From positions 1 to 44,438 of the forward strand of contig JAMDCK010000034.1 in the NCBI GenBank assembly GCA_023488435.1: a stretch of 44,438 nt of DNA. Direction: 5' to 3'. Every line of letters starts with the position of its first letter. Position 1 is the stretch's first letter. A model generated the notes under the pieces. The model was not told the DNA's origin. It did no database searches and was given only the letters and a program-made list of their open reading frames with translations. Shown in pieces: positions 3-37,266 of this stretch. This DNA is from Actinomycetota bacterium. GTDB lineage: Bacteria > Actinomycetota > Coriobacteriia > Anaerosomatales > UBA912. A program made the position numbers and the translations under genes.

Positions 3-1466
<1,464 letters not shown>

Positions 1467-1476
1467 GTCCTGCAGG

Positions 1477-1520
1477 GAGAATGCGAAAGGGCGGCCCCAT
1501 CATGGGCCGCCCTTTTTTGT
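1477..1520. repeat. 44-bp direct repeat, left copy (terminator duplication)
   Basis: These 44 bases match 2685-2728 at 43 of 44 positions, in the same orientation; the only difference is C at 1496 versus G at 2704. The repeat contains the whole gdhA terminator plus 12 upstream bases. Together the copies bracket a 1.16-kb two-gene cassette, as expected if a unit was inserted at the terminator and duplicated its target. Confidence 0.93.
1489..1518 (+). terminator. Intrinsic terminator of gdhA
   Basis: A 9-bp GC stem (GGGCGGCCC at 1489-1497 with GGGCCGCCC at 1504-1512) closes a 6-base loop and is followed by six T. The complementary strand has only a short T run after the stem, so it may also stop leftward transcription weakly. 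This sequence is one of two near-identical copies; see the repeat entries. Confidence 0.92.
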
Positions 1521-1543
1521 GAGCAGGCGGTGCCACGTAGCGG

Positions 1544-2074
1544 TTAGGCGACTTCCAGGTACTTGACCAGTTCCGCAACTCGGGCGAGCGAGATTTTCGT
1601 AGGGTCGCCTTGGGACAGGTATGCATGCAGGTTCCCGGGGTTCAACCCAAGATCCTTCGCCATCCTGTATCTGGTCACACCCTTCTTCGATTCCAGCTCC
1701 AAGATCCTCCATCGGACTTGCATGCGGAGATCCTTATCGCGACCTGAAGCATCGCGCCTCACCACATAGCTATGCCAGACCTTGGTGTACTCAGGGCGCA
1801 AAGCGGAGCTAGGAGCGGTGAGTTCGTCCATCAAGCGGCCTGCGGACTGAAGCTGCGCGAGTGCTTGGAGCTCCAGCTGCAGCTCCGGTCGCCCCTCAAG
1901 CCTGTTGCCGAGCCGCACGGCACGACCCGTGACCGCAGCCCACAGGAGCAGAGGTTCGACGAGTCGAGACTCGATCTGAGATAGTGCAGCGAGTCTGTCC
2001 AGCGAGAGCGTATTCTCGCCAGAAAGAGCCCTTACATATGACTGAAGGAATCCCTCGAAGGTCAGTGGTCGCAT
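1544..2074 (-). CDS. Helix-turn-helix protein paired with a nucleotidyltransferase (antitoxin-like)
   Basis: About 176 residues from the ATG at 2074, which has a CAGGAG site 9 bases upstream; a GTG at 2083 is possible but poorly spaced. The N-terminal 120 residues are helical and unrecognised. The C-terminal 45 residues form an XRE-like helix-turn-helix (TRYRMAKDLGLNPGNLHAYL, then a recognition-like segment ending ARVAELVKYLEV). It overlaps the end of the upstream nucleotidyltransferase gene by 13 bases, so the two are translationally coupled. Pairing of a DNA-binding protein with a nucleotidyltransferase-fold protein is the usual layout of AbiE-like and MNT-like toxin-antitoxin systems, so an antitoxin or repressor role is plausible. 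I do not recognise the exact family. Confidence 0.75.
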   Translation of the reverse strand: MRPLTFEGFLQSYVRALSGENTLSLDRLAALSQIESRLVEPLLLWAAVTGRAVRLGNRLEGRPELQLELQALAQLQSAGRLMDELTAPSSALRPEYTKVWHSYVVRRDASGRDKDLRMQVRWRILELESKKGVTRYRMAKDLGLNPGNLHAYLSQGDPTKISLARVAELVKYLEVA

Positions 2075-2598
2075 GGCCCGCACTCCTGCCGGAATTCCTG
2101 GTAGTTCTGGAGAAACTCCTTGTAGCGACGATCACTCATCGTGCTGTCTTGCATTTCGTCGGCGATTTGGGCGAGGCGGCCCCAATCAAGCATCTTCAAG
2201 ACTTCAGGACGTCGGACGTCTTGCGCATCAGAATCTCGTTGCGAATGAAGCTTAGAGGCTACTACGTCCTCGAGTGAGGCCGAGTAACATTCAACGGTCG
2301 TCGTCCCAAGATCCAGTGCAACGAGCCTGTCTTCAAGGTTGTATGCGAAATGGTCGAGGTAGGCAGCGACGCGAAAGTTGATGTCGTACTGTGCCATCAA
2401 GCTTCCCAGTTCGCGCGGAAAGGAGAGTGCATCGAGATCAGCTGTCGAGCGGTTCAAGCATCCCAGCAGGACCATCGCCCCGCCGCCTACAAGAACAAGC
2501 CTGAAGGTTCGGCCCGGATATAGCAGATAGACGGTACGATCGAATTCGCGCAGTCTGTTCTCGAGTTCCTCTTTTCCAAGTTCAAGTGAGCCTGGCAT
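2062..2598 (-). CDS. Nucleotidyltransferase-fold protein (DUF6036/AbiEii-like)
   Basis: About 178 residues from the ATG at 2598. A longer reading from the TTG at 2658 is unlikely because that codon lies in the -35 box of the gene's own promoter. The segment LVLVGGGAMVLLG followed about 10 residues later by STADLDAL is the hallmark of the polymerase-beta-like nucleotidyltransferase fold (Gly-Gly, then Asp-x-Asp metal ligands). This is the arrangement in AbiEii toxins and in DUF6036 proteins. It is followed by the overlapping HTH gene. A toxin that transfers nucleotides to tRNA or protein is known for relatives, but the substrate here cannot be read from sequence. It lies inside the cassette bounded by 44-bp repeats. 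Confidence 0.8.
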   Translation of the reverse strand: MPGSLELGKEELENRLREFDRTVYLLYPGRTFRLVLVGGGAMVLLGCLNRSTADLDALSFPRELGSLMAQYDINFRVAAYLDHFAYNLEDRLVALDLGTTTVECYSASLEDVVASKLHSQRDSDAQDVRRPEVLKMLDWGRLAQIADEMQDSTMSDRRYKEFLQNYQEFRQECGPCDH

Positions 2599-2629
2599 GC
2601 GGGCCTGCCTTTCTCCCAATCTTTGAAGA

Positions 2630-2658
2630 ATAGTATTCTGTAAAATATCACTTGTCAA
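2630..2658 (-). promoter_or_regulatory. Sigma-70-type promoter of the nucleotidyltransferase/HTH cassette
   Basis: On the minus strand TTGACA (2658-2653), a 17-base AT-rich spacer, then TACTAT (2635-2630). The predicted start is near 2623, 25 bases before the ATG at 2598. It is closer to consensus than most promoters in the window. Confidence 0.8.
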
Positions 2659-2684
2659 GGATCAGTCAAATTGCCGCAGGTTAC

Positions 2685-2728
2685 GAGAATGCGAAAGGGC
2701 GGCGCCATCATGGGCCGCCCTTTTTTGT
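2685..2728. repeat. 44-bp direct repeat, right copy (terminator duplication)
   Basis: Second copy of the gdhA terminator region, 43/44 identical to 1477-1520. It lies between the promoter of the cassette and the 3' end of the cytochrome b gene. Confidence 0.93.
2697..2726 (+). terminator. Duplicated intrinsic terminator
   Basis: Stem GGGCGGC (2697-2703) with GCCGCCC (2714-2720), then six T. The single base change relative to the left copy shortens the perfect stem from 9 to 7 bp. No rightward gene now ends here, so its remaining role would be to terminate the leftward cytochrome b transcript or insulate the cassette promoter. Confidence 0.8.
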
Positions 2729-2756: not shown

Positions 2757-3479
2757 CTACTCCGCTTGCGAGCCCCGGCCCTCATCTCCATACACCTCGC
2801 GGTACCAGAGCCCATGCCGCTCCTCGGCATACTTGCGATCCACCGTCCCGCTGAACATCGCAGGCAGCAGTTTGCGGTTCGCCTTGATGGCGAACGCCGC
2901 GAAGTGACCGATCACTCCCATCACTATGAGCATCGCCGAGACATTGTGCAGCATCGTTGTCCAGAAGATGAGCGTCGGATCGAGGTCGACTGCGGGCAGG
3001 TTCTTGATGACCTTCACCACACCGGTGATGGTGACCAGCAGCAGATTCCCGCCGATGAAAGCGTATGCGAGGCGCTGCTCGGCAAGGTACTTGTGCGACT
3101 CGGGCTCCTTGCCCCTGCCGAGCATCGCGGCGATGATTTTTGCGGACTCCTTGAAGTCGCCCCGTCTGGGCAGGATGGTGAATCTGCGCGTGGCTATCGC
3201 CGAAACGATGTGCAGCACCATTGCGAAGACAAGCACCATACCGGCCACGTAGTGGATCGAGAGTGTGAGGTGGTAGTCGGCGGCCCAGGCCATGCCTGGG
3301 AGGTCGGCGAGGCCGTATCTCTCGTACATCGGCATCTGACCGAAGCCCGAGAAGATCAGCGCGAAGGTAGATAGCGCCACAAGCCAGTGCACCAGCCGGT
3401 TCTCAACCGACTGCCGCACGATGCGGTCGCCCCTGGAGGCTACTGCGCGAGCAGTGGACGTTACTGTGCGGGCGCTCAT
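2757..3479 (-). CDS. Formate-dehydrogenase-gamma-like cytochrome b subunit
   Basis: A 240-residue membrane cytochrome b556-type protein. It would pass electrons between a periplasm-facing Fe-S subunit and the quinone pool. Four hydrophobic segments lie at about 30-48, 74-96, 138-158 and 172-196. Histidines in or beside them (H31, H70, H76, H90, H178, H192) are candidate haem ligands. The start is the ATG at 3479, whose ATGA overlaps the stop of the upstream Fe-S gene; a 12-codon longer reading is possible but less likely. The pair resembles FdnH/FdnI or HybA/HybB modules. No catalytic molybdopterin or hydrogenase subunit is adjacent, so the physiological donor or acceptor is unknown. Confidence 0.85.
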   Translation of the reverse strand: MSARTVTSTARAVASRGDRIVRQSVENRLVHWLVALSTFALIFSGFGQMPMYERYGLADLPGMAWAADYHLTLSIHYVAGMVLVFAMVLHIVSAIATRRFTILPRRGDFKESAKIIAAMLGRGKEPESHKYLAEQRLAYAFIGGNLLLVTITGVVKVIKNLPAVDLDPTLIFWTTMLHNVSAMLIVMGVIGHFAAFAIKANRKLLPAMFSGTVDRKYAEERHGLWYREVYGDEGRGSQAE

Positions 3480-4459
3480 TCGGCGCCTCCTTTCCAGGCC
3501 TTCGAAGCGGCCCAAGCCGCGGCGGCCACTCCTGCGATCGGTGCGATGATGTAGCCCGCAGCCATGCCGTTAGCGGTATCGAGGAAGTTCTCGACGTTCG
3601 GCCCCATTCCGGGCACCGTGATGCGCATGGCTTCGGGGAGCGCCTCCTTGCGCTGTGAGATCGCCTCGTCGATGCGCTCGAAGGACACCGGCGAGACGTA
3701 GAAGGTCGAGGTCCCGCCGTTCTCGGCAATCCCGTAGGTGTATCCGTTGATCTCGGCAGCGCGTTCTTCGGCGAGTCGGAGCATCTCCTCTTTGGGGCCG
3801 GACTGCAGGGCTCCGGTCTGACATGCCGAGACACACGCTGGTGGCTCGCCCTGCTCGAGCAGATCGGTGCACAGGTCGCACTTGTACATCACGCCGCCGC
3901 CCATCAGGCCTGGTACGAGCTTCATGTAGAGGCCGACGCCGGCTTGGCGTTGCGGAATCGACCATGGGCAGACGTCGCGGCATTTCGCGCCGCCCATGCA
4001 GCCGTTCTCGTTGATGACGACCGCGCCGTTGGGCTGCTTCTTCTTTACGCTGAACGGACACAGGTTCGCACAGGGCGGGTTGTCGCAATGCAGGCAGCGG
4101 CGGGGGATGTGAATGAGCTCGCCGTCCACTTCGACGGTCTCGATGAACGACCAGTTGTACGGGGTGAGCCGGTCGGTCAGATCGCGCTTGTCGGACCAGT
4201 CCTCGTGAGTGCCGGTGGGCCAGTTGTCGGGGATGTTCTCGACCGGTTCGGGGAAGCGGGGGGAGTTCTTGGTCGTGCACGCGCTGGTGCACAGGCCGCA
4301 GCCGATACACTTGCTCAGGTCGATGAAGGTGCCGATTTCGTCGACGGGGGGAGCGTCGATGGCGAACGCTTCCTTTGGCAGTGCCAGCGTCGCGGTGCCA
4401 GCCGCTCCAGCCGCTGCGAAGCGGGCAAGGAACTCGCGTCGGCTCATCTGGTCGTTCAT
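3476..4459 (-). CDS. Tat-exported four-cluster Fe-S electron transfer subunit (FdhB/HybA-like)
   Basis: A 327-residue protein with the twin-arginine signal SRREFL at 6-11, then a hydrophobic stretch ending near AFA (31-33). Four ferredoxin-type clusters are visible: C51/54/57/61, C122/125/130/134, C154/160/164 and C194/197/209/213. A C-terminal membrane helix (about 299-318) would anchor it outside the membrane, as in FdnH and HybA. The ATG at 4459 is chosen because it gives a compact Tat signal; a 60-codon extension upstream reaches across the promoter. It is first in a two-gene operon with the cytochrome b gene. The promoter contains a perfect palindrome in its spacer, suggesting tight repression. 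The catalytic partner is missing from the window. Confidence 0.88.
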   Translation of the reverse strand: MNDQMSRREFLARFAAAGAAGTATLALPKEAFAIDAPPVDEIGTFIDLSKCIGCGLCTSACTTKNSPRFPEPVENIPDNWPTGTHEDWSDKRDLTDRLTPYNWSFIETVEVDGELIHIPRRCLHCDNPPCANLCPFSVKKKQPNGAVVINENGCMGGAKCRDVCPWSIPQRQAGVGLYMKLVPGLMGGGVMYKCDLCTDLLEQGEPPACVSACQTGALQSGPKEEMLRLAEERAAEINGYTYGIAENGGTSTFYVSPVSFERIDEAISQRKEALPEAMRITVPGMGPNVENFLDTANGMAAGYIIAPIAGVAAAAWAASKAWKGGAE

Positions 4460-4677: not shown

Positions 4678-5511
4678 ATGAAGACAGATTCGCCTCAGAC
4701 TTTTTCCAATAACGGAGGCCGACCGAGGCAGCGAATAGCCAGGATTGTCGGGATTATGTTCGCAATAATCACCGGTCTTGTAGTGCTTGCTCAGTCGTTC
4801 ACAGTGATCATTGGCTGGCTATCGCCGTATTCACCGGCAATCTCTCGACTCGTGGACAATCATGCTGTTAGTGATTTGCGTCCAGGGGTCGATATCACTC
4901 ACTTCGAGTCGCGGCTAGGACGATCGACTTACAAGACGGCCGAAGGCCCCTTTGTCGAACATATCTTTGTTAGGGATAACTGTTACGTTCAGGCCATAAC
5001 CGACTCTAACGATAGGGTACTCTTTTTCGCAGTGACAGTAAGGAACGCCGAGTTTCGTCCGCGCTTCGAGACGCCGGGCGTAGACAATGGCTTCACGGCG
5101 CCGGTGCAACTTGGTGTGACGCGTTTCTATGAATGGGGCCGCCCTGACCAGCTTAATGGATGGTTCGGAGCGAACTGGGCCCTGTACGTGGAGACACTGC
5201 ATCTCCCACATAGCGACAATTTCGTTGGCGTCCACATGGCATCCAGCGACGCGGGACACTTCTTCCAAACGCTCGGGGATGCGCCGTTCATGGCCGAGGA
5301 ATACCCCAGTCCGTTAAATGAGGCCATGTTAGTCAATGACCCCGGTTCGTCGGCTCTTCTTTGGTACCGGAGGGGCACCATTGCTAATACGTATGGCGAG
5401 AGCGTCAGCGATTTTGCTGTAACAAGTCTCTTCTACGATGACGGGATGCCCAGATATGACATTCTGATCGGTCCAAATCGAGTTCGAGTGGGTGGATTGA
5501 ACGGCGATTAG
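4678..5511 (+). CDS. Unrecognised membrane-anchored protein
   Basis: 277 residues. A short polar N-terminus is followed by one clear membrane helix at about 24-49 (IVGIMFAIITGLVVLAQSF and onward). The remaining 225 residues are soluble, probably extracytoplasmic, and rich in aromatic and beta-forming stretches. There is a weak resemblance to the ETEC_3214 class of single-helix proteins (segment with a fixed-spacing FESRLG), but I would not name it on that. Base composition is clearly lower in GC than the flanking redox and transporter genes and codon use is mixed, suggesting recent acquisition. It stands alone, rightward, with its own promoter; the following gene is 139 bases away. Confidence 0.7.
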   Translation: MKTDSPQTFSNNGGRPRQRIARIVGIMFAIITGLVVLAQSFTVIIGWLSPYSPAISRLVDNHAVSDLRPGVDITHFESRLGRSTYKTAEGPFVEHIFVRDNCYVQAITDSNDRVLFFAVTVRNAEFRPRFETPGVDNGFTAPVQLGVTRFYEWGRPDQLNGWFGANWALYVETLHLPHSDNFVGVHMASSDAGHFFQTLGDAPFMAEEYPSPLNEAMLVNDPGSSALLWYRRGTIANTYGESVSDFAVTSLFYDDGMPRYDILIGPNRVRVGGLNGD

Positions 5512-5650
5512 GGGTCACTCTTTCGGCCCCTTAGACGGTTCTTCGACTACATCTCCCTCGGTTGACGGGGTAGTCTGAGCAGAGAAGTGTGTGGGGGTAG
5601 CGTATCGTGGACATGCGTATCAACGTTGGGCGGGCCGCAAAGGACTCTTG

Positions 5651-6388
5651 GTGACTGACCAAAATATCATCGAGCAATTTGTTGAGCACCTGGCGTCGAG
5701 CACTCATCCTGGCCTCGTGGTCAATCGTTGGCCTGATAAGGAGAACCGCCGCTCTCCGGATATCGATGCGATTGCCGGGCAATTTGCAATCGAGCATACG
5801 AGTATCGACACCGTCCCAGACCAGCGGATGCGTTCGGCACAGTTCATGCAAGTCGTCGGAGAGCTGGAGTCAGAGCTATCGCCGTTGCTTACAGCCAGAC
5901 TCCGAATCACTTTTGAATGGGAAGCTGTTGACAAGGGCCAAGATTGGCGGGCGATCAATCGGATGCTTCGAGAGTGGATTCTCAAGGAAGCGGAAGCATT
6001 GCCGGATGGGAAATCAACTGTCCAATCGATTCCGGGAATCCCGTTTAGACTTCATATAAACAAGGAAAGCGATAGACCCCCAAGGCTCATATTTTTGCGA
6101 TCCCCGCCGGATGACGACAAGCTACCTAGCAGGCTTCAAGCTCAACTGAGCCAGAAGTTGGCCAAGCTAGAGCCATATAGAGGGAAGGGCTTCAAGACCT
6201 TGCTGCTGATTGAGAGCTCTGACCTGGCACTCATGTGCAAGGACTTGATGCTGGATTCGATACGGCATGCGTTCTCGAATCGCCTGCCGGACGGAGTAGA
6301 TGTGGTTTGGTTCACCGACACATCTTTGCCACACGATATCGTATTCCATGACCTCACGAAGCATCTGAAGGGACGGTCAGACCAGTAA
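5651..6388 (+). CDS. Unrecognised protein, possible PD-(D/E)xK-type nuclease fold
   Basis: 245 residues from the GTG at 5651, preferred over the GTG at 5591 because an AAAGGA site stands 6-7 bases before it. No signal peptide or membrane helix. Near the N-terminus the run RRSPDIDAIAGQFAIEHTSI has the shape of an Asp followed by a Glu on the next strand, as in PD-(D/E)xK nucleases. The expected lysine is replaced by threonine, so this is only suggestive. The rest is mixed alpha/beta. GC content is low like the gene before it, marking the same island. Defence or DNA repair is possible but unproven. Confidence 0.65.
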   Translation: MTDQNIIEQFVEHLASSTHPGLVVNRWPDKENRRSPDIDAIAGQFAIEHTSIDTVPDQRMRSAQFMQVVGELESELSPLLTARLRITFEWEAVDKGQDWRAINRMLREWILKEAEALPDGKSTVQSIPGIPFRLHINKESDRPPRLIFLRSPPDDDKLPSRLQAQLSQKLAKLEPYRGKGFKTLLLIESSDLALMCKDLMLDSIRHAFSNRLPDGVDVVWFTDTSLPHDIVFHDLTKHLKGRSDQ

Positions 6389-9811: not shown

Positions 9812-10852
9812 ATGCACATGGCGGACGCTCTACTCTCACCACCGGTGGCCGGGGTGATGCTCGCGGCGACTGCGGGCACGGCGGCCTGGTGCATAAAACG
9901 CGTGCGGGAGGACATGGACGAGCGGATCGTACCGCTCATGGGCGTCGCGGGTGCGCTGGTCTTCTCGGCGCAGATGCTGAACTTCACGATCCCGGGAACC
10001 GGGTCGAGCGGGCACCTGGGCGGCGGTTTGCTGCTTGCAGCCCTGCTCGGACCGCACGCGGCGTTCCTCGTCATGGTCTCGATACTCGTGATCCAGGGGC
10101 TCTTCTTCGCCGATGGCGGGCTGCTCGCCTTAGGCGCGAACATCTTCAACCTCGGGTTCTTCCCCGCTTTCATCGGTTACGCACTCATCTATCGCCGCAT
10201 TGTGGGGGATGACCCGACGGTCCGAAGGCTCTTCATCGGCGGCTTGCTGGGCGCGGTCGTCGGATTGCAGCTAGGCGCGTTCGGCGTGGTGGCGCAGACG
10301 GCGCTTTCCGGCGTCACAGAGCTGCCCTTTACCGCATTCCTCGCGATGATGCTGCCGATCCACCTGCCCATCGGGATCATCGAAGGGCTTGTGACCGCTG
10401 GGATACTGGCGTTCATCCTCAAGGCGCAACCCGAGCTGATCGCTTCGGGCGCCAGACGCGCCGGGATCGAACCGCCGAGGACGAGGCGCGTTGCCGTCGG
10501 ACTCCTGACCGCGGCGGTTCTCGGGGCGTCGATGGTGGCGTGGTTCGCCTCGGCAAGTCCGGACGGGCTCGACTGGTCGATGGAGCGCGTAGCCGGAACC
10601 GCCGAGATACGCGGCGCATCGACCCCACTACACGAGGCGGTCGGCGAGGTGCAGGAGCGGCTGGCGTTCCTTCCCGGCTACGGCTTCCGTCCCTCGCCTG
10701 ACGCGCCTGCGGAGGCGGTCGGCGCCGCGCAGTGGCCCGCCGTCAGCGAGGAGACCAGTGTCGCCGGTGCAGCGGGTGTCGCGATGACGCTTGGGGTCCT
10801 CCTCGCGATGGGGCTGCTGTTCAAGTGGCGCGCGAGCAGACGGGGGCGGTAG
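9812..10852 (+). CDS. cbiM: ECF nickel/cobalt transporter substrate-binding subunit, CbiM-CbiN/NikN fusion
   Basis: 346 residues from the ATG at 9812 (AAGGAGG 9799-9805). The mature start MHMADALLSP is the signature N-terminal metal-binding loop of CbiM/NikM, in which His2 coordinates the metal. Six or so membrane helices follow. A C-terminal extension carries PDGLDW at about 250 and a final membrane helix near 320-338, matching a fused CbiN/NikN subunit. It is divergent from nikR-cbiQ-cbiO, completing the transporter. The last 49 codons are present again downstream because of the 753-bp tandem duplication, but this copy is intact. Confidence 0.93.
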   Translation: MHMADALLSPPVAGVMLAATAGTAAWCIKRVREDMDERIVPLMGVAGALVFSAQMLNFTIPGTGSSGHLGGGLLLAALLGPHAAFLVMVSILVIQGLFFADGGLLALGANIFNLGFFPAFIGYALIYRRIVGDDPTVRRLFIGGLLGAVVGLQLGAFGVVAQTALSGVTELPFTAFLAMMLPIHLPIGIIEGLVTAGILAFILKAQPELIASGARRAGIEPPRTRRVAVGLLTAAVLGASMVAWFASASPDGLDWSMERVAGTAEIRGASTPLHEAVGEVQERLAFLPGYGFRPSPDAPAEAVGAAQWPAVSEETSVAGAAGVAMTLGVLLAMGLLFKWRASRRGR

Positions 10853-11458
10853 CCGCGCGTGACCCGCGGGCCGAGCTGCGCCATAATGGGGACGCGGCAG
10901 GCGGTTAGCCGCCAGCGGACCGACGCGAGACCCGGAAGGTGACACACGCATGATCCCTCGTTATTCACGCCCGCAGATGGCCGGGATATGGGCGCCGGAG
11001 AACAAGTTCAAGATATGGCAGGAGATCGAGCTCCTCGCCTGCGAGGCGCAAGCCGAACTCGGGCAGATCGGCATCACCGCCGAGGAGGCCGCCCACATCC
11101 GCGCCACTTCGGCATTCGACATCGCTCGCATCGACGAGATCGAGCGCGAGACCAACCACGACGTCATCGCCTTCCTCACCAACCTCGCCGAGAACATCGA
11201 CGCGGGCATCCCCGAAGCGAGCCCGAAGCCCAGCCGGTGGGTGCATTACGGCATGACCTCCTCGGATCTGGGGGATACCGCGCTGTGCTACCAGATGACG
11301 CAGGCGGTCGACATCCTCATCGACGACGTTCGGCGTATCGGCGCGGTCTGCAAGCGCCGCGCTTTCGAGACCCGAGAGATGCTCTGCGCCGGCCGCACGC
11401 ATGGCATACACGCCGAGCCCATGACCATGGGGATGAAGTTCGGCCGCTGGGCGTGGGC
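10706..11458. repeat. 753-bp tandem duplication, first copy
   Basis: Covers the last 49 codons of cbiM, the cbiM-purB gap and the first 509 bases of purB. All sampled positions and all six translated frames match 11459-12211 exactly. The breakpoint (base 11458 to 11459) shows no shared bases between the two ends. Confidence 0.95.
10859..10887 (+). promoter_or_regulatory. Possible purB promoter
   Basis: GTGACC (10859-10864), 17-base spacer, CATAAT (10882-10887). The duplication carries the same element at 11612-11640 in front of the full-length purB. The -35 match is modest. Confidence 0.35.
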
Positions 11459-11540
11459 CCTGCGGAGGCGGTCGGCGCCGCGCAGTGGCCCGCCGTCAGC
11501 GAGGAGACCAGTGTCGCCGGTGCAGCGGGTGTCGCGATGA
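10950..11540 (+). pseudogene. Truncated duplicate of purB
   Basis: The first 169 codons are identical to the full purB that starts at 11703. At 11458/11459 the sequence jumps to the duplicated cbiM tail in a different frame, adding 26 unrelated residues before a stop at 11540. The fragment retains the N-terminal lyase region and the TMGMKFGRWAW segment but lacks the signature loop SSAMPHKRNP and the catalytic serine, so it cannot be an active lyase. It keeps its own start and ribosome-binding site and might still be translated. Confidence 0.88.
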
Positions 11541-11605
11541 CGCTTGGGGTCCTCCTCGCGATGGGGCTGCTGTTCAAGTGGCGCGCGAGCAGACGGGGGC
11601 GGTAG
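11459..11605 (+). pseudogene. Duplicated 3' end of cbiM
   Basis: The last 49 codons of cbiM, beginning exactly at a codon boundary (codon 299), now without a start. They lie in the +2 frame relative to the truncated purB copy. Encodes only the terminal membrane helix of the CbiN-like part. Confidence 0.85.
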
Positions 11606-12211
11606 CCGCGCGTGACCCGCGGGCCGAGCTGCGCCATAATGGGGACGCGGCAGGCGGTTAGCCGCCAGCGGACCGACGCGAGACCCGGAAGGTGACACAC
11701 GCATGATCCCTCGTTATTCACGCCCGCAGATGGCCGGGATATGGGCGCCGGAGAACAAGTTCAAGATATGGCAGGAGATCGAGCTCCTCGCCTGCGAGGC
11801 GCAAGCCGAACTCGGGCAGATCGGCATCACCGCCGAGGAGGCCGCCCACATCCGCGCCACTTCGGCATTCGACATCGCTCGCATCGACGAGATCGAGCGC
11901 GAGACCAACCACGACGTCATCGCCTTCCTCACCAACCTCGCCGAGAACATCGACGCGGGCATCCCCGAAGCGAGCCCGAAGCCCAGCCGGTGGGTGCATT
12001 ACGGCATGACCTCCTCGGATCTGGGGGATACCGCGCTGTGCTACCAGATGACGCAGGCGGTCGACATCCTCATCGACGACGTTCGGCGTATCGGCGCGGT
12101 CTGCAAGCGCCGCGCTTTCGAGACCCGAGAGATGCTCTGCGCCGGCCGCACGCATGGCATACACGCCGAGCCCATGACCATGGGGATGAAGTTCGGCCGC
12201 TGGGCGTGGGC
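11459..12211. repeat. 753-bp tandem duplication, second copy
   Basis: Exact repeat of 10706-11458, directly abutting it. It continues into the intact remainder of purB at 12212. Confidence 0.95.
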
Positions 12212-34707: not shown

Positions 34708-36158
34708 CCGAGTACCTCGAGAGCCCTGAGACCCCCGAGCGTCCCGACCGCATGGAGGAAGCCTGCGGGGTCATCGCGATCTACGCGCCCGGACAGGATG
34801 TCGCCAGAGCCGCCTACTTCGGCTTGCATGCGTTGCAGCACCGAGGGCAGGAGAGCGCAGGCATCGCTGTGGGTGACGGCGAGACGGTCACGGTAATCAA
34901 GGACCTGGGGCTTGTCTCCAGCGTCTTCAAGGCATCGGACCTCGACTCGCTGACCGGCGACCTGGCCATCGGCCACACGCGCTATTCGACCACCGGCGCC
35001 TCTGACGCCTGGGACAATGCGCAGCCGCACCTCTCGGCGATAGGCAATCAGGTCATCGCGCTTGCCCACAACGGCAACCTCGTGAACACCACCGAGGTCC
35101 GCGACCTGCTGCGCCCTGAGCGCATCCGCTTCCGCTCGACCACCGACTCCGAGGTCATCGCGACGCTGGTCGGTCAGTACACGCAGATACACAGCCATAT
35201 TCGCGAGGGTATCCGCGAGACGATGTCGCTCATCCGCGGGGCCTACGCGGTCGTGCTGGCGACCGAGGACGCGATCTACGCCTTCCGCGACCCGTACGGA
35301 ATCAGGCCGCTGGCGCTGGGCCGCATCGACGGCAAGGGCTGGTGCGTCGCCAGCGAGACTTGCGGGCTGGACATCATCGGCGCGACGTACGAGCGCGACG
35401 TGGCACCCGGCGAGGTCATCAAGATCTCGGCGGCCGGCCTCGAATCCGAGCAGGCCGTACCTGCCGAGAAGCCCAGCCTGTGCATGTTCGAGTTCATCTA
35501 CTTCGCGCGCCCTGACAGCGTCATGTACGACTGCACTCTTTACGAGGCCCGCCATCGCATGGGCGAGTTGCTCGCCGCCGAGGCCCCCGCCGCCGCCGAC
35601 CTGGTCATCGGCGTGCCGGATTCCGGCGTGCCGGCAGCCGTCGGGTACGCGCTCGGAAGCGGGATCCCCTTCGGCGAAGGGCTCGTGAAGAACCGCTACG
35701 TCGGCCGGACGTTCATCTCGCCTTCGCAGGAGCTGCGGCAGCAGGGCATCCGCCTGAAGCTCAATCCTCTGCGCCACGTCATCGAAGGCAAGCGTCTCAT
35801 CGTGACCGACGACTCGATCGTCCGCGGCAACACCAGCCGCAAGCTCGTGCAGCTCCTTCGCGACTCCGGCGCCGCCGAGGTCCACATGCGCATCACCTCG
35901 CCGCCGGTACGCTGGCCCTGCTTCTACGGCATCGACACTGACACCCAAGGGCAGCTCATCGCCTCCGAACACGACATCGAGGCGATCCGCGAGTACATCG
36001 GCGCGGATTCGCTCGCGTACCTCTCCCTCGAAGCGATGGTCGCTTCCACCGGCGCTCCGGCCGATCGCTTCTGCCTGGCCTGCCTCAACGGCGATTACCC
36101 GGTTGGGATTCCCGACGCCGTCCGCCGAGGAAAACTCGCGCTCGAATCCTGCGGCTGA
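34704..36158 (+). CDS. purF: Amidophosphoribosyltransferase
   Basis: 484 residues. First committed step of purine synthesis, PRPP + glutamine to phosphoribosylamine. A 20-residue propeptide precedes C21 (MEEACGVIAIYAP), the nucleophile of the glutaminase domain, as in the Bacillus type. PRTase motif LIVTDDSIVRGNTS is near 370. Cysteines in CMFEFIYF, WPCFYGID and FCLACLNGDYP match the 4Fe-4S cluster of this class. The second half (from codon 258) is duplicated downstream. Complete and overlapping purL. Confidence 0.97.
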   Translation: MTEYLESPETPERPDRMEEACGVIAIYAPGQDVARAAYFGLHALQHRGQESAGIAVGDGETVTVIKDLGLVSSVFKASDLDSLTGDLAIGHTRYSTTGASDAWDNAQPHLSAIGNQVIALAHNGNLVNTTEVRDLLRPERIRFRSTTDSEVIATLVGQYTQIHSHIREGIRETMSLIRGAYAVVLATEDAIYAFRDPYGIRPLALGRIDGKGWCVASETCGLDIIGATYERDVAPGEVIKISAAGLESEQAVPAEKPSLCMFEFIYFARPDSVMYDCTLYEARHRMGELLAAEAPAAADLVIGVPDSGVPAAVGYALGSGIPFGEGLVKNRYVGRTFISPSQELRQQGIRLKLNPLRHVIEGKRLIVTDDSIVRGNTSRKLVQLLRDSGAAEVHMRITSPPVRWPCFYGIDTDTQGQLIASEHDIEAIREYIGADSLAYLSLEAMVASTGAPADRFCLACLNGDYPVGIPDAVRRGKLALESCG

Positions 36159-36370
36159 GATCCGTGCTGCAAGAGGCGATAGCGGCGATCCTCGAAGGTG
36201 CGCCTTTGGCTCTGACCTTCAACCCGCTGGCATCTCTTGTGGCTGCAACGCTCGCGGCTGCACTCTACGGAGGTAAACGCTGGGCCCCCCGCTCGCGCGC
36301 TGTGTGGTTCGCGGTCGTCCTGGCCGCAGGCTGGCTCGCAGGCGACGGACTCGCGGTGGTCGCGCAGGTG
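35475..36370. repeat. 896-bp tandem duplication, first copy
   Basis: Runs from codon 258 of purF through its stop and the first 69 codons of the downstream membrane-protein gene. All visible positions and translated frames match 36371-37266 exactly. The junction at 36370/36371 has no shared bases. Confidence 0.95.
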
Positions 36371-37054
36371 AGCCTGTGCATGTTCGAGTTCATCTACTTC
36401 GCGCGCCCTGACAGCGTCATGTACGACTGCACTCTTTACGAGGCCCGCCATCGCATGGGCGAGTTGCTCGCCGCCGAGGCCCCCGCCGCCGCCGACCTGG
36501 TCATCGGCGTGCCGGATTCCGGCGTGCCGGCAGCCGTCGGGTACGCGCTCGGAAGCGGGATCCCCTTCGGCGAAGGGCTCGTGAAGAACCGCTACGTCGG
36601 CCGGACGTTCATCTCGCCTTCGCAGGAGCTGCGGCAGCAGGGCATCCGCCTGAAGCTCAATCCTCTGCGCCACGTCATCGAAGGCAAGCGTCTCATCGTG
36701 ACCGACGACTCGATCGTCCGCGGCAACACCAGCCGCAAGCTCGTGCAGCTCCTTCGCGACTCCGGCGCCGCCGAGGTCCACATGCGCATCACCTCGCCGC
36801 CGGTACGCTGGCCCTGCTTCTACGGCATCGACACTGACACCCAAGGGCAGCTCATCGCCTCCGAACACGACATCGAGGCGATCCGCGAGTACATCGGCGC
36901 GGATTCGCTCGCGTACCTCTCCCTCGAAGCGATGGTCGCTTCCACCGGCGCTCCGGCCGATCGCTTCTGCCTGGCCTGCCTCAACGGCGATTACCCGGTT
37001 GGGATTCCCGACGCCGTCCGCCGAGGAAAACTCGCGCTCGAATCCTGCGGCTGA
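36164..37054 (+). CDS. Chimeric ORF: membrane-protein N-terminus fused to PurF PRTase half
   Basis: 296 residues created by the tandem duplication. Residues 1-69 are the two-helix start of the downstream small membrane protein. Residues 70-296 are PurF 258-484, joined exactly at a codon boundary and in frame. The product would lack the glutaminase domain but keep the PRTase motif and Fe-S cysteines, so any ammonia-dependent activity would be membrane-tethered. It may be a by-product of a recent duplication or an assembly error. Confidence 0.55.
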   Translation: MLQEAIAAILEGAPLALTFNPLASLVAATLAAALYGGKRWAPRSRAVWFAVVLAAGWLAGDGLAVVAQVSLCMFEFIYFARPDSVMYDCTLYEARHRMGELLAAEAPAAADLVIGVPDSGVPAAVGYALGSGIPFGEGLVKNRYVGRTFISPSQELRQQGIRLKLNPLRHVIEGKRLIVTDDSIVRGNTSRKLVQLLRDSGAAEVHMRITSPPVRWPCFYGIDTDTQGQLIASEHDIEAIREYIGADSLAYLSLEAMVASTGAPADRFCLACLNGDYPVGIPDAVRRGKLALESCG

Positions 37055-37266
37055 GATCCGTGCTGCAAGAGGCGATAGCGGCGATCCTCGAAGGTGCGCC
37101 TTTGGCTCTGACCTTCAACCCGCTGGCATCTCTTGTGGCTGCAACGCTCGCGGCTGCACTCTACGGAGGTAAACGCTGGGCCCCCCGCTCGCGCGCTGTG
37201 TGGTTCGCGGTCGTCCTGGCCGCAGGCTGGCTCGCAGGCGACGGACTCGCGGTGGTCGCGCAGGTG
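36371..37266. repeat. 896-bp tandem duplication, second copy
   Basis: Exact repeat of 35475-36370, directly abutting it and running on into the intact membrane-protein gene at 37267. Confidence 0.95.

Follow-up and report, generated by a model that had tools for sequence, protein, structure and literature searches.

The DNA analysed here (the window) is a 44,438-bp stretch of an actinobacterial genome from the class Coriobacteriia. Near its left end, the genes for glutamate dehydrogenase (gdhA) and a cytochrome b subunit face each other across an interval that carries two 44-bp direct repeats, identical at 43 positions and offset by 1,208 bp from start to start (Table 1). The repeats enclose 1,164 bp of unique sequence and exactly two genes, both on the minus strand and overlapping by 13 bp; each repeat lies about 26 bp from the unit's end. 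The first gene of this operon encodes a nucleotidyltransferase, the second a protein ending in a helix-turn-helix (HTH) domain, and the promoter fits the consensus at 10 of 12 positions. The original prediction, made from the letters alone, had described near-identical repeats carrying the gdhA terminator around two overlapping genes with a near-consensus promoter, and alignment, a genome search, and folding confirmed this layout. Farther along the window (4678–6388), two open reading frames of 277 and 265 amino acids, without a Pfam match, lie beside an Fe-S/cytochrome operon.

Table 1. Features of the gdhA–cytochrome b interval in the window
Feature	Position	Strand	Basis or remark
gdhA (NADP-specific glutamate dehydrogenase), flanking the insertion on the left	105..1466	+	
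Repeat copy 1, intrinsic terminator of gdhA; stem without mismatch, T6	1477..1520	+	Repeat and fold analysis
176-aa protein, helical N-terminal part and C-terminal HipB/XRE-like HTH; putative antitoxin/repressor	1544..2074	-	Pfam, model, Foldseek
Nucleotidyltransferase PF19502 (DUF6036), 178 aa; putative toxin	2062..2598	-	Pfam and homologue alignment
Palindrome AGAATAGTATTCT over the -10 box; putative operator for the HTH protein	2627..2639	.	Core kept in 11/11 order-level loci
Promoter TTGACA-N17-TACTAT	2630..2658	-	Sequence
Repeat copy 2, one stem mismatch; adjoins the cytochrome b gene 3' end	2685..2728	+	Repeat and fold analysis
Cytochrome b561-type/formate dehydrogenase gamma-like subunit; right flank	2757..3515	-	

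Both copies of the repeat form strong hairpins (-26.4 and -23.4 kcal/mol), equalled by none of 200 shuffled sequences; the one base at which they differ sits in the copy 2 stem, so that copy 1 has the perfect hairpin. With its T6 tract on the plus strand, the repeat serves gdhA and not the minus-strand genes, and both copies would terminate rightward transcription, as would be expected of copy 1, which follows gdhA. For the leftward genes the repeat provides a hairpin alone, lacking a good T-run. No further copy with three or fewer mismatches exists in the 1,704,539-base host genome, the hairpin is absent from all 60 related genomes searched, and an Rfam search near the repeats gave no match above the gathering score. 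A scan of approximately 959 kb of the host genome (56%, the first 20 kb per contig) for direct repeats spaced by 6 kb or less found, tandem duplications aside, only one other hairpin-bearing short repeat, a weak one of 39 bp. An apparent extension of the repeat into the 3' end of gdhA, as a diverged remnant upstream of copy 2, was rejected as non-significant, being equalled by 25 of 400 random pairs in an anchored alignment.

The uninterrupted arrangement can be read in a genome of a sister genus of the same family (G003). There gdhA converges with the cytochrome b gene across less than 100 bp, the pair is absent, and a single terminator is present; the window flanks, joined without the insert, align to this site. 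Because the site in G003 lacks the pair and has one terminator, the gene pair in the window is an insertion. The terminator sequence varies from one genus to the other, yet the window copies are alike at all but one base, which indicates that the duplication is recent. We conclude that the two-gene unit is a recent insertion into the gdhA terminator that left the terminator duplicated. This bears out the expectation that the outer genes would converge on one terminator without the cassette; of the proposed check for an empty site in relatives, the single terminator without the pair was found, but its stem sequence is unlike that in the window. In a genome of the same genus (G001) the contig stops inside gdhA and the cytochrome b region is missing from the assembly, leaving the site unreadable.

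The base composition of the pair is foreign by computation, third-position G+C being 60–67% as against 83–87% for gdhA and the neighbouring Fe-S subunit gene. A search of the three other genomes from its genus and family did not find the pair. In other families it occurs at unrelated loci with 49–81% identity, and with 72–81% in several within the order.

The assembly contains approximately 25 tandem duplications, arranged head to tail, 0.25–1.1 kb long and perfect or almost so, about one per 40 kb of host genome (for example, window 10706–12211 and 35475–37266, and L063 1489–1978). They look like assembly mis-joins that would break or duplicate the gene calls there. That the pair was likewise mis-joined between gdhA and the cytochrome b gene is conceivable in an assembly with this many long duplications typical of mis-joining, but very improbable: those duplications run for 0.25–1.1 kb with few or no differences, whereas the 44-bp copies differ at one base, share no exact run longer than 24 bp, and enclose unique, functionally coherent sequence.

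Between the repeats there is no recombinase or transposase, only the two genes. There are no terminal inverted repeats either, the inner ends being no closer to each other than random pairs (51% of controls were as good). A transposon or insertion sequence is rejected for want of a transposase and terminal inverted repeats, and the description of the pair as a recombinase-free inserted unit, given the empty site in G003, holds. The insertion event itself would have duplicated the gdhA terminator, most simply by staggered-break fill-in during end joining or through one crossover with a circular molecule that carried this terminator as well. The duplicated-terminator scar is a record of how a bare two-gene module can get into a genome with no recombinase of its own.

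Other loci of the pair bear on how such a scar may form. Strong direct repeats stand immediately outside both ends of the pair at 4 of 30 loci (the window, G005, G080, and G299), and long flanking repeats are absent at the other 26. The four are of different kinds: a terminator in the window, integron attC sites in G005, a dispersed repeat in G080, and, in G299 (L070 712–922 and 2063–2268), hairpin-bearing direct repeats of approximately 206–211 bp that enclose a distant DUF6036 pair beside RelB-YafQ and occur in exactly two copies in that genome. Random intervals of the same geometry reached that repeat score in 9 of 1,500 cases (own genome, with its assembly duplications) and in 7 of 1,500. 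Flanking repeats are therefore enriched at pair loci, even though about 12 of the 30 loci come from one genus and are close replicas of a single site; since their kinds differ, no single attachment site is implied. As for the proposed search for the pair between duplicated terminators at other loci, flanking repeats stand at four loci, the window included, and not at 26, and the kinds of repeat do not agree. The 189-bp repeats at the G080 locus (L068) were rejected as pair-specific. They belong to a dispersed intergenic family whose members reach 189 bp and which gives 50 matches across the 1.5-Mb G080 genome; two copies flank the pair.

Capture of foreign DNA that bore the pair, by end joining or assisted by homology, where the terminator palindrome had broken, with repair duplicating the 44 bp and no dedicated mobility involved, has close to an even chance of being correct. 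Forty-four base pairs is long for a filled-in break, and Ku, which the host encodes, had no match in G299, G080, or G005, so that end joining cannot account for all repeat-flanked copies. In its favour are the host Ku, the lack of terminal inverted repeats, and repeat lengths that differ among loci. Homology-facilitated illegitimate recombination is, in an excerpt of PMC3240628, an established bacterial route for the integration of linear DNA, which favours the homology-assisted form of capture.

Site-specific integration would instead make the 44-bp terminator an attachment site, recognised by an integrase that works in trans from another locus, and the cassette a recombinase-free satellite. 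The near-identical repeat does hug the unit, the pair in G299 has an analogous two-copy, hairpin-bearing repeat, and the host encodes a full-length integron integrase, on a different contig, as well as other tyrosine recombinases. However, the 44-bp site is used nowhere else in the genome, the sequence and length of the repeats vary from locus to locus, and the site has no R-box pair. No attC was found either: an attC covariance model reached at best 4.7 bits in 1400–2900, as against 57–96 bits for the sites in G005 and G020 (themselves among those used to build the model) and 61.8 bits for an attC near the G005 integrase, outside the training set. An integron cassette at the window site was rejected on the same model. 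We consider site-specific integration rather unlikely, and the proposal that the repeat is att-like remains unproven, there being neither terminal inverted repeats nor attC and the repeats differing among loci.

The pair does travel in integrons elsewhere. In G005 it forms one cassette between two attC sites, with a weaker third attC past a neighbouring PIN/MazE cassette, and in G020 an attC marks its end. The copy in the window could accordingly be a lost cassette, inserted at a secondary (attG) site and later stripped of its attC, a route that the integron integrase of the host would permit. We regard this as improbable: by the general integron mechanism, insertion at attG would make no 44-bp duplication, no attC remnant rises above noise at the window site, and a lone GCCTAAC box across the HTH stop codon carries no weight, such boxes being too common by chance. 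Insertion of cassettes at attG has itself been published (Loot et al. 2024, cited in PMC11023631). Integron toxin-antitoxin cassettes are the cassettes known typically to carry their own promoters (PMC11023631).

Full-length integron integrases (TIGR02249, 434–481 bits) were present in 9 of 13 genomes of the class searched, including those at G000:C32 (L063 182–1180), L051, L052, L053, L055, and L057, with an attC within about 1.2 kb in five. A 2022 survey reported no complete integron in Actinobacteria (PMC9024848). The host also carries, at L063 8142–13163, three partial 3' copies of an integron integrase gene that share an upstream repeat, CTAAC..GATTATCCAGTCTGCGTAATC, and are spaced by 2.0 and 2.6 kb.

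It is an improbable, though broader, reading that DUF6036-HTH pairs form an uncharacterised toxin-antitoxin family of Coriobacteriia moved by more than one route: as integron cassettes and by insertions leaving hairpin duplications of differing size, 44 bp in the window and approximately 206–211 bp in G299, a recombinase in trans perhaps helping. If true, it would imply a mobilisation process that duplicates hairpin targets.

The nucleotidyltransferase has a Pfam match to DUF6036 only (E = 2.5e-35). Its residues G38-G40, R50, T52, D54-x-D56, K116, and D124-xx-D127 are invariant in 11 aligned homologues and make up motifs I–IV (VGG-x14-DLD with R50, K116-L117, and D124xxD127), with no basic residue ahead of motif IV. 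Mutation of motifs I–IV in AbiEii abolishes toxicity (PMC3985639), and the invariant DUF6036 residues correspond to these motifs. MenT enzymes have a catalytic DxD, a Lys, and a phosphorylated Thr or Ser (PMC11375011); T52 occupies the place of that phosphorylated residue. A structure model of the nucleotidyltransferase was poor (pLDDT 62) and was excluded as evidence for its fold. Foldseek matches obtained from it were dismissed as meaningless, and a search of solved structures by sequence gave nothing meaningful. No relatives were found in the viral contigs or plasmids searched, and no mention of DUF6036, nor any toxicity or binding experiment on it, turned up in the literature searched.

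The partner protein is modelled with confidence (pLDDT 93) as all-helical, with an N-terminal part of approximately 115 residues and a last 60 or so that resemble HipB/XRE. By sequence, only the C-terminal HTH (HTH_26/HipB-like) is detected, weakly and just under the Pfam cut-off; by structure, this region matches HipB and other XRE repressors with a Foldseek probability of 0.99, no E-value being below 0.001. The N-terminal part has no fold or family match in Pfam or Foldseek. No HEPN domain was detected in the protein with Pfam, and an Rx4-6H motif is not evident.

An 11-bp palindromic core, GAATASTATTC (GAATA[C/G]TATTC), precedes the start codon in all 11 order-level loci, where its centre is the -10 box (TANTAT); in most of them a TTGAC-like -35 is located 17 bp upstream of the -10. 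At more distant loci, a related AT-rich palindrome (AATAATAGTATTATT or TATTATT...AATAATA) is usual at the same place. The core has no further occurrence in the 915 kb of host genome scanned, where 0.14 would be expected. Most simply, the HTH protein would repress its own operon through this palindrome.

The nucleotidyltransferase was found in 38 of 300 Coriobacteriia genomes, and an HTH gene lies directly downstream of it in 30 of 30 loci examined across the class. Its neighbours are often of toxin-antitoxin type: YoeB and Fic in G043, RelB-YafQ in G299, PIN with a MazE-type partner in G005, and PIN proteins in G039 and G057. Obligate adjacency, a conserved promoter palindrome, and a patchy, mobile distribution among toxin-antitoxin neighbours are general traits of such systems. 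The original prediction had pointed to the toxin-antitoxin defence role of AbiE-like pairs, and the invariable pairing, promoter palindrome, and neighbours support the pair as toxin-antitoxin-like.

It is unlikely, in our judgement, that the roles are the reverse of those assumed in Table 1, with the nucleotidyltransferase as antitoxin (like MntA for HepT) and the helical protein as toxin. An HTH and an operator palindrome at the operon promoter are usual antitoxin traits; the partner ends in a HipB-like HTH, the palindrome at its operon promoter is conserved, and it gives no HEPN-type match. Reversal would be favoured by the helical N-terminal part, which matches no known fold, and by HEPN/MNT modules, in which, according to an excerpt of PMC7641770, the nucleotidyltransferase neutralises its partner.

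Taken together, the interval is probably a horizontally acquired, autoregulated two-gene module of toxin-antitoxin type, recently inserted into the gdhA terminator. We infer toxicity, neutralisation, repression, and a target for the pair along the following lines. The DUF6036 nucleotidyltransferase would be the toxin and would add nucleotides to a target, either RNA or protein, as is thought for MenT and AbiEii. The downstream protein would neutralise it through the helical N-terminal part, and its C-terminal HTH would bind the palindrome over the -10 box, repressing the operon; loss of the antitoxin would derepress the promoter and let the toxin act. The module is of an ordinary kind, the nucleotidyltransferase-HTH toxin-antitoxin type, in an uncharacterised family; its insertion scar is clean and unusual. 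A nucleotidyltransferase family labelled as of unknown function thereby gains a testable toxin-antitoxin role, with a defined partner, promoter, and putative operator.

Among known systems, AbiE shares with the pair a two-gene operon that has inverted repeats at its promoter, a partner carrying an HTH, and a nucleotidyltransferase with hG[G/S]-x-DhD, the motif II Arg, the motif III Lys, and DxxD. The original prediction had likened the pair to AbiE, an identity that did not survive: the nucleotidyltransferase is DUF6036 and not DUF1814, there is no PADLOC match, and the gene order is reversed. Membership of AbiE was rejected on profile (NCBIfam and PADLOC nil; Pfam DUF6036 only), gene order, and domain layout. 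The pair has no DUF1814 or COG5340 match and its nucleotidyltransferase gene comes first, whereas the AbiEi antitoxin (COG5340) has an N-terminal winged HTH and is encoded upstream, the window partner being a downstream protein with a C-terminal HTH. AbiE has two spaced 23-bp repeats where the window has one short palindrome over the -10, and a motif I–II spacing of x15 where the window enzyme has x14.

MenAT has the catalytic DxD and Lys in common with the pair and, two positions ahead of the DxD, a conserved Thr, the equivalents of T52 being T39 in MenT1 and S78 in MenT3. It belongs to another Pfam family, and the window partner falls outside the MenA families tested by Pfam and NCBIfam; partner families of MenT are diverse, as has been published. 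HEPN/MNT modules differ in that the window partner has no HEPN match in Pfam. Chromosomal-integron toxin-antitoxin cassettes share the attC-bounded form with its own promoter seen for the pair in G005 and G020, the former beside a PIN/MazE-type cassette; unlike these, the window copy has no attC and a duplicated terminator in its place. Finally, the HipB/XRE antitoxin repressors of HipBA and HigA share the C-terminal fold of approximately 60 residues and a palindrome at the promoter, but the window protein has an extra helical N-terminal part of about 115 residues, and its partner is a nucleotidyltransferase and not HipA.
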